A stretch of DNA of 64,000 bases from Sulfurimonas sp. HSL3-7 (lineage in GTDB: Bacteria; Campylobacterota; Campylobacteria; Campylobacterales; Sulfurimonadaceae). How positions within the stretch are numbered: position 1 is the first letter of the stretch; each line of letters begins with the position of its first letter. Positions 10,226-35,271 of this stretch are shown piece by piece. The notes below the pieces were generated by a model that saw only the letters and a program-made list of their open reading frames with translations, did not search any database and was not told where the DNA came from. The stretch covers positions 682,001-746,000 of the forward strand of contig NZ_CP147919.1 in the NCBI RefSeq assembly GCF_039645985.1. Reading direction: 5' to 3'. A program made the translations under genes and the position numbers.

Positions 10226-10585
10226 ATGAAAAAATGGATATGGCTTATCGCTTTGACGCTCTTTTTGGTCGGATGTGCCGATAAAACATCGTATGTCAAG
10301 GTTGTGGACGATTCGATCGAAGATGATATTTCCATCGAGAAGATCAATGAACGCATCAACAGCGAAAGCGGGCTTAAAGAGCTGCAGGTCTTAGGTGAAA
10401 ACGAGACGGACGAGTATATGAAACTGCGCTACCGTGTGGTCTGGTTTGACAAAGACGGTTTTGAGATTGACTCTATAAGCAAGAACTGGACAGAGCTGCC
10501 GGTGTATAAAAATGCCAATTTCACCATTCATATCGTCGCACCGAATAAGAAGGCGACAGACTACCGCCTCTTCATCAACAAGTAA
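10226..10585 (+). CDS. YcfL-like (DUF1425) lipoprotein
   Basis: 119 aa lipoprotein with lipobox FLVGC (Cys17) and a beta-sandwich-like domain. The segment LRYRVVWFDKDGFEID followed by hydrophobic strands and a TDYRLFI end is typical of the DUF1425 family. In E. coli ycfL lies next to lpoB (ycfM), and the same adjacency is seen here. The molecular role is unknown. Start: ATG one base after the upstream stop, with GGGAGAAAATAGC as the ribosome-binding region. Confidence 0.8.
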   Translation: MKKWIWLIALTLFLVGCADKTSYVKVVDDSIEDDISIEKINERINSESGLKELQVLGENETDEYMKLRYRVVWFDKDGFEIDSISKNWTELPVYKNANFTIHIVAPNKKATDYRLFINK

Positions 10586-10594
10586 AGGAATATC

Positions 10595-11209
10595 ATGAAA
10601 TATATAGTGACCATCACACTCTCTTCGCTGCTCGCAGCAGCCTTTATGAGCGGTTGTGCTCAGAAAACGGAACGTATCGATATGCATGAGGATAAGGGTG
10701 CCCAGGTCATGGGGCTGGATTACCGCGATTTCAATGAAGCCGCAGCCGAGGCGGTACAGTCGATGCTGCAGTCGGGTGCGCTCGATAAAAAGACAGGAGA
10801 CCGTTATGTTTTGGCTATTTCGCGTGTGACCAATGACACGATGCAGCATATCGACACCGATCAGCTGGTCAAAAAGATCCGCGTGGAGCTGCTGAGAAGC
10901 GGCAAAGTGGTCGTGACGACCGCGGTCGGCGCGAACGGGCCTGAAGACAGGATGAGCAAGCAGGCACGCGAACTGCGCGAAGACGAGGAGTTCAACCAGC
11001 GTACTGTTCAGGAGAAAGGGCAGATGATCGCGCCCGACATGAGTCTTTCGGGCAAGATCCTGCAGCGCAATGTCCGAATGGACGACGGCAAACAGCAGGT
11101 GGAGTATTATTTTATGCTCAGTCTGACCGAGATCAAGACGGGGCTTGCATGGTGGGAAGGGGAGACCATCATAGGAAAGCGGGGTTCCGGAAAATCCGTC
11201 TCCTGGTAA
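10595..11209 (+). CDS. penicillin-binding protein activator LpoB-like lipoprotein
   Basis: 204 aa lipoprotein (lipobox FMSGC, Cys21) with the LpoB core: LDYRDFNEAAAEAVQSML, RYVLAISRVTNDTMQHIDTD, LVKKIRVELLRSGKVVVTTA, then LSGKILQR and WWEGETIIGKRGSGKSVSW at the end. In E. coli LpoB reaches from the outer membrane to activate PBP1b. A PBP partner is not in this window. It lacks the long disordered linker of enterobacterial LpoB, so the reach across the periplasm must differ. Last gene of the lipoprotein trio. Confidence 0.85.
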   Translation: MKYIVTITLSSLLAAAFMSGCAQKTERIDMHEDKGAQVMGLDYRDFNEAAAEAVQSMLQSGALDKKTGDRYVLAISRVTNDTMQHIDTDQLVKKIRVELLRSGKVVVTTAVGANGPEDRMSKQARELREDEEFNQRTVQEKGQMIAPDMSLSGKILQRNVRMDDGKQQVEYYFMLSLTEIKTGLAWWEGETIIGKRGSGKSVSW

Positions 11210-12355: not shown

Positions 12356-13069
12356 ATGCAGATCAACAAAAGTCTTTTGACCAACACCGTCGCCGTAGCG
12401 CTGATACCCCTCTCCTACCTGATACCCGAGCCAACCCTTTCAAAAGCGTTGCTTTACGGCGGTATCTTTGCCTTTTCCGGGGCGATCACCAACCTGCTGG
12501 CGATCCATATGCTTTTTGAGAAGGTGCCGCTGCTTTACGGCTCGGGCGTCATCGTCAACCGCTTCGAGAGTTTCAAAGCGGCGATCAAAGAGCTGATGAT
12601 GAGCCAGTTCTTCACCAAGGAGCAGCTCGACAACTTTTTTGCCAACGAAGAGAAAAAGATTGACCTCGCACCGATGATAGAGACGACCGACTTCTCGCCC
12701 GCCTTCGATGCCCTGAGCAAAACGGTGATGGAGTCCTCCTTCGGCGGGATGCTGGGGATGTTCGGCGGCGAGAAAGCACTGGAAGGGCTGCGCGATCCTT
12801 TCACACGCAAGCTCAAAAGCGCGGTGACCAGGATCGTCGTCAGCGAGAGTTTCGAGAAACAGCTGCAGGCGTACCTGAGCGGTTCGACGCTGAGCGAAGA
12901 CATGCTTGAAAAGATCGAAGAGGTGATAGAGGCGCGCCTGAACGAACTGACCCCGCAGATGGTCAAAGAGATGGTGCAGGACCTCATACGCGAACACCTC
13001 GGCTGGCTGGTCGTCTGGGGCGGTGTATTCGGCGGACTGATCGGGCTGGGAAGCTCGTTCGTCCTGTAG
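12356..13069 (+). CDS. DUF445 family membrane protein
   Basis: 237 aa. N-terminal hydrophobic spans include YLIPEPTLSKALLYGGIFAFSGAITNLLAIHMLFEK, whose AITNLLAIHMLF pattern is the DUF445 signature. A long soluble helical middle follows, and a C-terminal span LGWLVVWGGVFGGLIGLGSSFVL. Function of the family is unknown. The last about 235 bases are present again, degraded, at 15561-15782 on the far side of an AT-rich cassette. Confidence 0.85.
   Translation: MQINKSLLTNTVAVALIPLSYLIPEPTLSKALLYGGIFAFSGAITNLLAIHMLFEKVPLLYGSGVIVNRFESFKAAIKELMMSQFFTKEQLDNFFANEEKKIDLAPMIETTDFSPAFDALSKTVMESSFGGMLGMFGGEKALEGLRDPFTRKLKSAVTRIVVSESFEKQLQAYLSGSTLSEDMLEKIEEVIEARLNELTPQMVKEMVQDLIREHLGWLVVWGGVFGGLIGLGSSFVL
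12830..13063 (+). repeat. direct repeat copy 1: 3' end of the DUF445 gene
   Basis: From GGATCG to AAGCTCGTTCGT this stretch is repeated at 15561-15782 in the same direction. The pair differs by scattered substitutions, and the second copy lacks about 14 bases near GCGGTG. The two copies bracket the AT-rich three-gene cassette. Confidence 0.9.
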
Positions 13070-13110
13070 CAGTCCAAGAAGGGATTGCCCCCAAGCCTAG
13101 AAGACAAACA

Positions 13111-13830
13111 TTATTTATTCTTTTTGTCGAAACTGATATTCAAGACATGACCGCGTAAGTTGGTTCCCGAATAAAGATTTTCATAGAAATATGATTCAAA
13201 GCCACTCTTTTTCATATGATTAGCGATCATATCGATATCGTATTCAAGACGGATCAATTCGATGGTACCATCAGTTATAATAGCGTACGCCGCTCTCTTG
13301 TCTCCATCTCTTGGCTGTCCTACGGAACCGGGATTGCAAAAAAGCCTGTTATTGTCTAAACCGATGACAGTCTGGACATGGGTATGCCCAGCAAAAAAAT
13401 ATTGTTCTTTAAATGGTGCAAACATCTCATTATTGATCGTATATAAATAAGTATCAAGACCATTTTCTGAAAATGAACCGTGAACCATGTAATATGTTGA
13501 ATCTTTGTAAAAAGGGATACTTTGTGTTAACCATTTAAAGTTCTCTTCGGTTATTACTTGTCGTTGAAAATCCAAACTCCTATTGACACTGATGGAACGT
13601 TCACATTGTTCATTCTCAATCATATAGTTATCATGATTGCCTCTGATATTAATGACATTCATCTTTCTTAGCAGTTCAATACTTTCATTGATCATGCTGT
13701 AATAACCGCACACATCTCCTAATGAGAATATTTTCTTGATCCCTCGACGTTGTATATCATCCATTACTGCTTTCAGGGCAGGGTAGTTCGCATGGACATC
13801 AGAAATTATCGCTGTCATATTGAATAACAT
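13111..13830 (-). CDS. calcineurin-like metallophosphoesterase (YfcE/MJ0936 type)
   Basis: 239 aa with the full metal-site set: ISDVHANYPALKAV (DxH), SLGDVCGYY (GD), IRGNHDNY (GNHD), MVHGSF, FAGHTHVQT (GHTH) and the NPGSVGQPRDG loop typical of MJ0936/YfcE-type phosphodiesterases. All residues look intact, so it should be an active hydrolase; the substrate is unknown. It is the last gene of the AT-rich cassette, and its start overlaps the ATP-grasp gene by 32 bases (an inner ATG at 13818 is possible). This suggests it acts on a product or by-product of the other two enzymes. Confidence 0.85.
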   Translation of the reverse strand: MLFNMTAIISDVHANYPALKAVMDDIQRRGIKKIFSLGDVCGYYSMINESIELLRKMNVINIRGNHDNYMIENEQCERSISVNRSLDFQRQVITEENFKWLTQSIPFYKDSTYYMVHGSFSENGLDTYLYTINNEMFAPFKEQYFFAGHTHVQTVIGLDNNRLFCNPGSVGQPRDGDKRAAYAIITDGTIELIRLEYDIDMIANHMKKSGFESYFYENLYSGTNLRGHVLNISFDKKNK

Positions 13831-14779
13831 CCTTAAGATATCGAATAGCGGATCCTCTTTTTTGCTTACACTTTTGCGGAACCTTATTTAAGAGAAAATA
13901 CTCAATACACATTTCTGCTTCATTAACGCCAAACTTTGTACGTATGGAAGTGGATGCAGATACTCTTGCATTTACTTCAAGAAGAAGATATTTGCTGCCA
14001 TCTTTTATTAACTGTATATTCGTTGGACCAATAGGTTTAATTAGGTTGCATAACTGGTTTACGTAGTCAATCATATCGTCATCTGCATTGATACACTTCG
14101 CTTTTACAGTTATGCCATTTCCCAATTTTCTCCAAAAAACTATCATATTTGCATAGTCACCGTTTTGGGTTCCGAATACAGAAATCGTATACTCATTATC
14201 ACCTTGAATCTTTTTTTGACAAATGTAACCATCTGAATACCGATATTTCCAATAGTCGAAATCTTTTTGGTCATTTATGGTCACAACGCCTTGTGAAGCA
14301 TAGGAGATATTTTTTTTCAATATAAAAGGTACACCTAATTTGGCAGCAACATAATCATAATCGAAATCTGTTCTTCCTATAAGCGTCGGTATTTGCTCTA
14401 TTTTGCCATTTAAAAAATCATACGTTTTAGCTTTGTTATGTAAATGAGGATAGACCTCTTCGTTGTTCAATACCAATTTAACATCTAACTTATCATAGAG
14501 CTTTTTGTGCCTCATCAGAACTTCCAATTCCGGTTCGATACAAGGTATCACTAAATCTATATTGTATTTGATGATCGTGTCATATAAAAATGTCGGAAAG
14601 CGTTCACTGGAGGCCATCACACCTTTTTCAAAAACATCACACCAAAATTGCCCTACAGCATCATCATATATATCAATACCAATAATATTGCAATTATATT
14701 TGGATGATTTCAAAGATTTAACAATTCCATAACCTATGATGCCACTGACTCCCGTGACTAATATATTGAATTTGTTCAT
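13799..14779 (-). CDS. ATP-grasp protein with N-terminal Rossmann-like domain
   Basis: 326 aa. The N-terminus NILVTGVSGIIGYGIVKSL looks like the preATP-grasp Rossmann region of carbamoyl-phosphate-synthase-like ligases. The central and C-terminal part carries ATP-grasp features: LGVPFILKKN (ATP lysine), EYTISVFG, and TNIQLIKDGSKYLLLEVNARVSAS with the Mg ligands Glu and Asn of EVNAR. Such enzymes form an amide or similar bond through an acyl-phosphate. The substrate is unknown. It overlaps the WbqC-like gene by an ATGA junction and the phosphoesterase gene by 32 bases. Base composition is strongly AT-rich compared with genes outside the cassette. Confidence 0.85.
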   Translation of the reverse strand: MNKFNILVTGVSGIIGYGIVKSLKSSKYNCNIIGIDIYDDAVGQFWCDVFEKGVMASSERFPTFLYDTIIKYNIDLVIPCIEPELEVLMRHKKLYDKLDVKLVLNNEEVYPHLHNKAKTYDFLNGKIEQIPTLIGRTDFDYDYVAAKLGVPFILKKNISYASQGVVTINDQKDFDYWKYRYSDGYICQKKIQGDNEYTISVFGTQNGDYANMIVFWRKLGNGITVKAKCINADDDMIDYVNQLCNLIKPIGPTNIQLIKDGSKYLLLEVNARVSASTSIRTKFGVNEAEMCIEYFLLNKVPQKCKQKRGSAIRYLKDVIQYDSDNF

Positions 14780-15477
14780 ATTAATCTATACCTATTTAAC
14801 ATCTCTCTGACTTCATCTTTTGAATTGAACATCATAATATCTATAATTGACAAATAGGGTACAAACTCATTTTGAAATTGTCGATACTCGACTATTTCAT
14901 TTTCAATAAAATGCAATTTTATATCATACTCTTTGAACTTTGCTTTGCTATATAATGCTTGGCCACCTATCAAATTGATATACACTTTGGCATTTAATAT
15001 CTCACATATATTTATTATCTTATCTTGTCCTCTTAAACTATTGTCTTTCTCAATAGCACTTGAATAAATAAATTTTGTATTCAATTCTAAATAGTTGGAA
15101 ATTTCTTCAAGTGAGTTGCCAATGAACTTGGCCAGATTTTTTTCTGAAAATTCTAATATGGATTTAATGAGTGGAAAAATATCTTGAAAATAGGGAGCTC
15201 TTTTATAGACTATTGCGATAGATTTTAAAATATTTACAGAATTGTTTCCAATGTCAATTTCGTTAATTAACTTATTTTGACTTAGTGCTTTAAGATGCAG
15301 TGTAATCTTGTGTGCTTTACCGTCAATCAAAATACTATTTCTGTTAATGTAGCCTTTTTTTTTATAGTGTACATCATCCAGAATCACAAATGTATCTACA
15401 CTCTTAATCAACTGCCAATAACCAATATACGAGAAAAGATAGGGTTGCATTATTGCTGTGACCATAGGTTTAGACAT
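14776..15477 (-). CDS. WbqC-like family protein
   Basis: 233 aa. The start VTAIMQPYLFSYIGYWQLI and the following VDTFVILDDVHYKKKGYINRN are the hallmark of the WbqC family (the QPxxFPxxGYxxLI and fDDVQYxKxxWxNRN patterns). Family members were first noted in O-antigen gene clusters; their chemistry is not established. It is the first gene of the cassette, with a strong purine-rich ribosome site (AGGAGGAGG) upstream and a TATAAT at 15504-15509 (minus strand). No glycosyltransferase gene is nearby. AT-rich, so probably acquired. Confidence 0.85.
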   Translation of the reverse strand: MSKPMVTAIMQPYLFSYIGYWQLIKSVDTFVILDDVHYKKKGYINRNSILIDGKAHKITLHLKALSQNKLINEIDIGNNSVNILKSIAIVYKRAPYFQDIFPLIKSILEFSEKNLAKFIGNSLEEISNYLELNTKFIYSSAIEKDNSLRGQDKIINICEILNAKVYINLIGGQALYSKAKFKEYDIKLHFIENEIVEYRQFQNEFVPYLSIIDIMMFNSKDEVREMLNRYRLI

Positions 15478-15503
15478 AACAACGCCTCCTCCTCTTCATT
15501 AAG

Positions 15504-15509
15504 ATTATA
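15504..15509 (-). promoter_or_regulatory. putative -10 element of the cassette operon
   Basis: TATAAT on the minus strand, about 27 bases before the WbqC-like start, next to a short inverted pair AAGTA/TACTT at 15514-15528. No clear -35 at the correct distance, so this is weak. Confidence 0.35.
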
Positions 15510-15560
15510 GCTAAGTATAACGTACTTATATCTGCTTTAAGCGCCAATTATTCAATACAA

Positions 15561-15782
15561 GGATCGGACGTCTCTGATGAGAGTTTCGAGAAACAGCTGC
15601 AAGCGTACCTGAGCGGTTCGGCGCTGAGCGAAGAGATGCTTAAAAAGATCGAAGAGGTGATAGAAGCGCGCCTGAACGGACTGACCCCGCAGATGGTCAA
15701 AGAGATGGTGCAGAACCTCATACGCGAACACCTCGGCTGGCTTGTTGTCTGGTGCGGTGATCGGGCTGGGAAGCTCGTTCGT
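15561..15782 (+). pseudogene. direct repeat copy 2: truncated DUF445 3' fragment
   Basis: Reads in one frame as SFEKQLQAYLSGS, then MLKKIEEVIEARLNGLTPQM and HLGWLVVW, very close to residues of the intact DUF445 protein (12356-13069). It then shifts frame through a deletion of about 14 bases and loses the last membrane segment and stop codon. There is no 5' part and no start site. It is a relic of duplication or recombination at the cassette edge. Confidence 0.85.
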
Positions 15783-15884
15783 ACTTTAAAAAAAGCACAG
15801 GTTTGTGGGATGCCAGCGCTCATACGAACAGTGGCGCATATAATGAAAAAATCAAGGGCGGCGAATTGAATCTCTTGCGCTTAT

Positions 15885-30031: not shown

Positions 30032-30079
30032 AGGATATTTACAAATTTCAAGAAATTTGACAATTCGCGCGAAAAGCTC

Positions 30080-30108
30080 TTGACATAGGGTTTTGATTTG
30101 TCTATAAT
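30080..30108 (+). promoter_or_regulatory. rRNA operon promoter
   Basis: Perfect -35 TTGACA (30080-30085) and perfect -10 TATAAT (30103-30108), 17 bases apart, about 270 bases before 16S. The 26 bases from the -10 on (30103-30128) are identical to those at the tRNA-Lys/Glu promoter. 30109-30379 is the leader and holds the 5' arm of the 16S processing stem. Confidence 0.9.
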
Positions 30109-30182
30109 TCCCGTCCACAAACGATGAGTCGCTTGAAAGAGAGACGAGAAAGACTTCGAGTTGAAGCTTTTTAAAAGTTTGA

Positions 30183-30211
30183 GATCATTGAAAACTAAGT
30201 AAGTTTGACAC
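30183..30211 (+). other. 16S processing stem, 5' arm (partner 31964-31991)
   Basis: The leader GATCATTGAAAACTAAG... pairs with the post-16S stretch at 31964-31991 over about 28 bases with few mismatches. Such stems are cut by RNase III to release pre-16S. Confidence 0.85.
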
Positions 30212-30379
30212 TGACCTTTCGGGGTTGGAAGTTAACTTTATAAGACACAAAAACACAACCGTCTATTTCAGTTGAAGTTTAAATACTTAGATTGAAATTG
30301 ACACTATTTTTTATAGCCAATGATTTTAAAATCTTGGGCATAAGATCAGTAATCTGCTTAGGCAGTCTTTACATAATTA

Positions 30380-31897
<1,518 letters not shown>

Positions 31898-32015
31898 CTA
31901 GAGTAACGAGTTCGCATTCGATTGACGAACTCAAAGAAAATCTCACGTCTTAGAAGAGTTAACGTGTCTACTTACTTAGTTTTCAGTGATCTATGTTATT
32001 TGAACATATTAATTA

Positions 32016-32092
32016 GGGCCTATAGCTCAGCTGGTTAGAGTGCACCCCTGATAAGGGTGAGGTCGGAGGTTCAAGTCCTCCTAGGCCCACCA
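32016..32092 (+). tRNA. tRNA-Ile (GAT)
   Basis: 77 bases including encoded CCA. Acceptor GGGCCTA/TAGGCCC, anticodon loop CTGATAA with anticodon GAT, T-loop TTCAAGT. All arms pair normally. Standard spacer tRNA between 16S and 23S. Confidence 0.98.
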
Positions 32093-32115
32093 TGTAAAGA
32101 TCACGAAGACCGGAT

Positions 32116-32188
32116 GGGGAATTAGCTCTGGGAGAGCGCCTGCCTTGCACGCAGGAGGTCAGCGGTTCGATCCCGCTATTCTCCACCA
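32116..32188 (+). tRNA. tRNA-Ala (TGC) with very short D-loop
   Basis: 73 bases with CCA. Acceptor GGGGAAT/ATTCTCC with the alanine identity pair G3-U70; anticodon loop CTTGCAC (TGC); T-arm AGCGG-TTCGATC-CCGCT is normal. The D-arm GCTC-TGGGA-GAGC has a loop of only five bases where eight (AGCTGGGA type) is usual. A14 and residue 15 seem to be missing. Either a real three-base deletion or an error in the sequence. Confidence 0.93.
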
Positions 32189-32199
32189 TTAGAGGTTAG

Positions 32200-32241
32200 A
32201 AGTTTAATTCAAGTACTAAACGAAGTATTTGAATTAGACTT
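32200..32241 (+). other. hairpin after tRNA-Ala in the 16S-23S spacer
   Basis: AAGTTTAATTCAAGTAC (32200-32216) pairs with GTATTTGAATTAGACTT (32225-32241) around an eight-base loop. Probably separates the tRNA from the 23S precursor; RNase III-type processing is inferred. Confidence 0.7.
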
Positions 32242-32264
32242 TTAGAAGTCTAGATGTTATTTAA

Positions 32265-32361
32265 CTTATTATTGTCAAAGTCAACAAAATTGTAACTACA
32301 ATTAATTCATTGACTGCTTTATTTGATGTATATTGATAAGGTAGTGAATACGCAAATTAGA
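32265..32361 (+). other. 23S processing stem, 5' arm (partner about 35272-35370)
   Basis: Nearly the whole spacer before 23S is complementary to the region after it (for example ATTGTCA, TTGTAACTA, ATTCAT, AAGG.AGTGA, TACGCAA in order on one side and their complements on the other). A stem of about 90-100 base pairs with bulges brings the two 23S ends together for RNase III. Confidence 0.85.

Positions 32362-35271
<2,910 letters not shown>

Follow-up and report, generated by a model that had tools for sequence, protein, structure and literature searches.

In the genome of Sulfurimonas sp. HSL3-7, three overlapping genes lie directly beyond the 3' end of a DUF445 family gene, and a damaged copy of that gene end lies on their far side. 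We examined this cassette within a window of 64,000 nucleotides (GCF_039645985.1, contig NZ_CP147919.1, positions 682,001-746,000); except where another locus is named, positions below are coordinates of that window. The features of the site are as follows:

12356..13069, plus strand: DUF445 family gene (PF04286, by Pfam), intact, the insertion-site gene, with orthologues in the other genomes of the genus
12845..13068, plus strand: direct repeat copy 1, the 3' end of the intact DUF445 gene, from repeat comparison
13111..13830, minus strand: calcineurin-like metallophosphoesterase (Metallophos_2, by Pfam) with intact catalytic motifs; probable true start 13818
13799..14779, minus strand: ATP-grasp carboxylate-amine ligase-like protein (PRK12767/PylC-like; Pfam, nearest solved structures 2pn1 and PylC)
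14776..15477, minus strand: WbqC family protein (PF08889, by Pfam), with a predicted class I aaRS/BshC-like fold
15478..15578, no strand assigned: AT-rich leader 5' of wbqC and proximal junction of the insert, from composition and sequence
15579..15788, plus strand: direct repeat copy 2, a DUF445 3' end truncated on its 5' side and 94% identical to copy 1; a short deletion inside it shifts the frame

All three frames are open, and the ORF coordinates agree with an earlier note on this DNA, which had described three minus-strand genes overlapping head to tail by 4 and 32 bases. The phosphoesterase probably starts at the internal Met5 (13818), because the alignment of its homologues begins at the position matching that residue; its overlap would then be about 20 bases. 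These start/stop overlaps suggest translational coupling within the trio. A promoter scan gave matches that fall in AT-rich DNA, none of them immediately 5' of wbqC. Elsewhere in the window, 30032-34725 is a probable rRNA operon without a long ORF and with tRNA-Ile and tRNA-Ala inside, and at 10226-11209 a DUF1425 gene and an LpoB-like lipoprotein gene form a possible peptidoglycan-synthase activator pair.

The composition of the cassette is foreign to its surroundings. GC contents of the phosphoesterase, ATP-grasp and WbqC genes are 0.36, 0.34 and 0.28, respectively, against 0.49 +/- 0.034 for the rest of the window genes, and in 500-base windows GC dips to 0.27-0.37 over the trio. By codon-usage distance the three genes rank 1st, 2nd and 4th of 46. 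The marked AT richness reported in the earlier note is borne out gene by gene, and the GC and codon-use profiles that it had called for are both atypical.

The flanking direct repeat, which the earlier note overlooked, amounts to 181 + 31 bp. In it, the terminal ~220 bp of DUF445 (12845-13068) appear again beyond the cassette at 15579-15788 with 94% identity. The 5' part of the gene is missing from this second copy, whose frame is broken by the short internal deletion; the two are the only DUF445 matches in the genome. They are 94% identical to each other versus 66-75% identical to other species of the genus, and derived bases occur in both. At two sites the remnant holds the base common to all relatives and the intact gene has changed, whereas at other sites the reverse applies, with the intact gene ancestral-like and the remnant changed. 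Because of the two-site pattern, we do not favour plain decay of the present intact copy as the origin of the remnant. Judging from these bases, either an old DUF445 duplication or the arrival of one copy with donor DNA from a near relative would account for the repeat. Single-crossover-like integration at the gene end would yield the observed layout, as would homology-assisted illegitimate recombination. By reading, no integrase or transposase was found among the ORFs at the insertion site, and there is no tRNA near it. Carriage by a mobile element was considered and set aside, relatives of the ATP-grasp protein being absent from phage records and IMG/VR. The plasmid collection held one distant (31%) ATP-grasp match, in a 2.6 Mb record.

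Comparison within the genus supports insertion of the cassette at a variable site. DUF445 is present in 7/7 other genus genomes, all of which carry other genes after it, and the insertion is therefore seen only in the HSL3-7 genome. From their translations, the genes that follow DUF445 include a PAS-domain-like protein, an antiporter-like protein, an AT-rich pair and others, so that this gene end is a variable spot in the genus. The AT-rich pair is oxidase-like with 32-35% GC (sites in L110-L116). Relatives of the ATP-grasp protein are scarce in the wider group: 8 matches at 1e-15 in 397 genomes of the phylum, the window's own included, and 1 match at 1e-30 besides the window's own in 399 genomes of the order. 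The earlier note had seen hallmarks of transfer here, with the proviso that a segment present at this locus in all close relatives with normal phylogeny would be a chance neighbourhood or an old native region; 0/7 genus genomes carry the cassette there. Horizontal acquisition is well supported by the combination of atypical composition and codon usage, flanking target duplication and empty site in relatives.

Two of the encoded proteins belong to enzyme groups with clear active-site residues, and the conserved metal-site and ATP-site residues uphold the earlier description of intact motifs for both. The phosphoesterase matches Metallophos_2 at 6.4e-22 (78.7 bits against 27), retains the DxH, GD, GNHD and GHTH motifs, and scores 39.7 against TIGR00040 (yfcE), below the cut-off of 56.25. 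The ATP-grasp protein matches ATPgrasp_Ter (PF15632) at 4.3e-10, with 39.9 bits against a gathering threshold of 29.1, and reaches 195.7 bits against NCBIfam PRK12767.1-1, below the equivalog cut-off of 218. It has the ATP-grasp fold and residues, with K116, K155, E196, E268 and R272 invariant. Among solved structures, its model (pLDDT 77.7) is nearest to a CPS-like protein (2pn1, Z 26.2) and PylC (4ffl, Z 23.8), and the amino-acid ligase RizA is among its Foldseek matches; all three are of the carboxylate-activating type.

The third protein is a clear WbqC by sequence (PF08889, 1.7e-63, 214.8 bits against a gathering score of 21.3, residues 11-224 of 233), and searches of the PDB with the single sequence and with a profile gave chance-level matches only. 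The AlphaFold model carries very high confidence (pLDDT 95.9, pTM 0.92). The best structural match is BshC (4wbd; Z 15.4, rmsd 3.3, 225 of 233 residues), followed by class I LysRS (1irx_B; Z 12.5, 180 residues), with most others at Z ~8. Foldseek also ranked BshC first, but at E 0.014. The predicted fold has the HUP/Rossmann core, the helical insert and the near-full-length superposition of the BshC/class I aaRS-like type. Profile comparison of 61 WbqC with 12 BshC sequences (hhalign) was negative, with a probability of 0.6% and E 0.097; we therefore claim similarity of fold alone and do not class WbqC as BshC. PF10079 (BshC) has no match in the window's genome or in 20 relatives. WbqC lacks the HIGH signature of class I aminoacyl-tRNA synthetases, and the equivalent loop reads QPYxxxYxGY in 61/61 sequences. 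In the last step of bacillithiol synthesis, BshC couples cysteine to an amine on a sugar conjugate. For the class I-related MshC, the group that receives cysteine is a glucosamine NH2 (PMC2922099). The literature that we searched held no paper linking WbqC to a function or describing the chemistry of PF08889.

The genomic company of these families points to surface glycans. A DegT aminotransferase occurs in 69/80 WbqC loci and lies directly upstream in 34/80. Glycosyl hydrolase family 32/43/130-like proteins recur near WbqC, in L101, L043 and L075 and in 26/80 of the WbqC loci. A phosphoesterase of the present type was found in one of the 80 (860 kb in all), L043, which also carries a closely related ATP-grasp gene. 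The ATP-grasp gene adjoins a phosphoesterase gene, usually with an SDR and in shuffled order, in loci L043, L101-L105, L123, L132, L153-L155, L159 and L173, which come from at least four phyla: Campylobacterota, Kerfeldbacteria, Bacteroidota (Flavobacterium) and Pseudomonadota (a gammaproteobacterial symbiont). On the tree of ATP-grasp proteins, the members with a linked phosphoesterase cluster together, with 4 changes against 12.8 in shuffles (0/500). Neighbours across the related loci include Wzx-type/polysaccharide flippase-type proteins, formyltransferase, NeuB, nucleotidyl transferase and sugar transferase, and on this basis we place the trio in surface-glycan metabolism. The literature searched contained no paper joining ATP-grasp, metallophosphoesterase and O-antigen.

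On the ATP-grasp tree, the window protein groups with those of L101, L043 and L155 at 100/99, and all three loci also have WbqC upstream. In L101 and in L179, a longer stretch around L155, the order is DegT, WbqC, methyltransferase, SDR, ATP-grasp, phosphoesterase; in L043 it is DegT, methyltransferase, WbqC, SDR, ATP-grasp, phosphoesterase. Co-occurrence of the three families in the same order, proposed earlier as a check on the trio, is thus found in three other loci. Together with the ATP-grasp/phosphoesterase pair in at least four phyla, this supports the joint function suggested in the earlier note. Its picture of a compact self-contained pathway is not supported: the relatives sit in larger surface-polysaccharide clusters with DegT, SDR, methyltransferase and glycosyltransferases, partners that are missing here.

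WbqC itself falls in a different subfamily. Its closest proteins, from Arcobacter and Sulfurimonas, are 66% identical, and the loci obtained for them hold no closely related ATP-grasp gene. On the WbqC tree, the window protein falls with those of Arcobacter, Sulfurimonas, Francisella and others, apart from the other ATP-grasp-linked WbqCs. An inherited WbqC/ATP-grasp/phosphoesterase operon was rejected on this separation, although the branches of L179 and L103 are long. Given the missing DegT, SDR and methyltransferase genes and a WbqC of another subfamily, we therefore regard the cassette as a mosaic, in which a different WbqC appears to have been joined to the ATP-grasp/phosphoesterase pair. 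Joining of this kind, repeated independently, fits a functional link, and could also mirror the abundance of WbqC in clusters of this kind.

With middling confidence, we suggest that the cassette is an acquired mosaic fragment of surface-polysaccharide genes whose three proteins tailor an activated amino sugar, by N-acylation or aminoacylation. A piece of ~2.5 kb from a surface-polysaccharide cluster would have recombined into the 3' end of DUF445, leaving a second copy of the gene end beyond the insert. In relatives, the amine would be supplied by the DegT aminotransferase, and WbqC would then form an amide on it with an acyl or aminoacyl group; this would be its most likely role because its predicted fold is BshC-like and DegT makes sugar amines. 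The ATP-grasp ligase may add a further amide or peptide-type bond via an acyl-phosphate. The phosphoesterase, whose role is the least certain of the three, is assumed to take phosphate off an intermediate or by-product. Here the trio stands alone, without DegT, SDR and methyltransferase, and its activity, if the genes are expressed, would therefore depend on host enzymes. The cassette may draw on the host's own amino-sugar enzymes; elsewhere in its genome two further WbqC genes occur, both beside DegT. One of these loci (L109:9512-13554) has a GDP-mannose/dTDP-glucose dehydratase-type gene next to it and a polysaccharide export gene close by. The other (L108:9517-11341) is near an IS200-like transposase.

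The absence of the relatives' DegT, SDR and methyltransferase, the decay of the second DUF445 copy and the isolation of the cassette away from glycan genes would fit a displaced, non-functional remnant of an O-antigen or capsule cluster, brought in by recombination and decaying without its partner genes. We consider this conceivable and rather improbable: the three frames have stayed open, the catalytic motifs are intact, and the overlaps suggest genes still arranged for coupled translation. A second alternative concerns the chemistry. WbqC could be a sugar nucleotidyltransferase, or some other enzyme with a HUP fold, and not an amide ligase; the trio would then activate a sugar head group instead of acylating it. 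CTP:glycerol-3-phosphate cytidylyltransferase and phosphopantetheine adenylyltransferase do match the WbqC model at Z 7.6, but this is half the Z of BshC, over ~106-128 residues against 225, and HxGH is replaced by YxGY in 61/61 WbqC sequences. Moreover, WbqC comes after DegT, and at the DegT step the sugar is normally already nucleotide-bound. We think this alternative unlikely. A small-molecule pathway apart from surface glycans (secondary metabolite or defence), for example of the Ter-type ATP-grasp kind, is very unlikely, for although PF15632 is matched above threshold (39.9 against 29.1), PRK12767 scores far higher (195.7 bits), the relatives examined sit among glycan genes, and PADLOC returned no match for any trio protein, which likewise led us to reject an anti-phage defence system.

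Returning to a mosaic cassette acting on amino sugars, the BshC-like fold of WbqC is to us the most interesting outcome, as it lets the chemistry of this widespread family be tested. PF08889 is spread over many phyla in surface-sugar loci, and the predicted fold together with the DegT link yields a concrete hypothesis for it, namely amide formation on an amino sugar. More broadly, and tentatively, the WbqC family may be a tRNA-independent ligase of the BshC/class I aaRS-like type that places acyl or aminoacyl groups on the DegT-made amino sugars found in surface polysaccharides; joined by SDR, ATP-grasp and phosphoesterase, it could form an undescribed, cassette-mobile route to glycans with peptide-like decorations. 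A further unit that can be tested is the recurrent SDR/ATP-grasp/phosphoesterase module. The insertion, for its part, shows short pieces of glycan clusters spreading beyond those clusters and leaving a readable scar.

Set beside known systems, each part of the cassette is familiar in some respects. The ATP-grasp protein resembles the PylC and PRK12767 ligases in its whole fold and conserved ATP-grasp residues, but falls under the PRK12767.1-1 and PylC cut-offs and has a different gene context. The phosphoesterase has all the metal-binding motifs of YfcE/Metallophos_2 enzymes (3rqz, E 3.8e-23), yet does not reach the TIGR00040 cut-off. WbqC differs from BshC and MshC in having no detectable sequence homology to them, no HIGH motif and no thiol pathway; it is like them in a predicted fold that resembles BshC along nearly the whole protein, in a loop conserved where HUP enzymes have their active site and in a family-wide genomic link to amino-sugar synthesis. 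It is a clear PF08889 member like the DegT-linked WbqC proteins of O-antigen and capsule clusters, although DegT is not adjacent here. As a whole, the trio departs from the glycan loci L101, L043 and L179 in lacking DegT, methyltransferase and SDR, in a WbqC of a different subfamily and in its position outside a glycan cluster, but it shares with them the same ATP-grasp clade, an upstream WbqC and the order WbqC, ATP-grasp, phosphoesterase.
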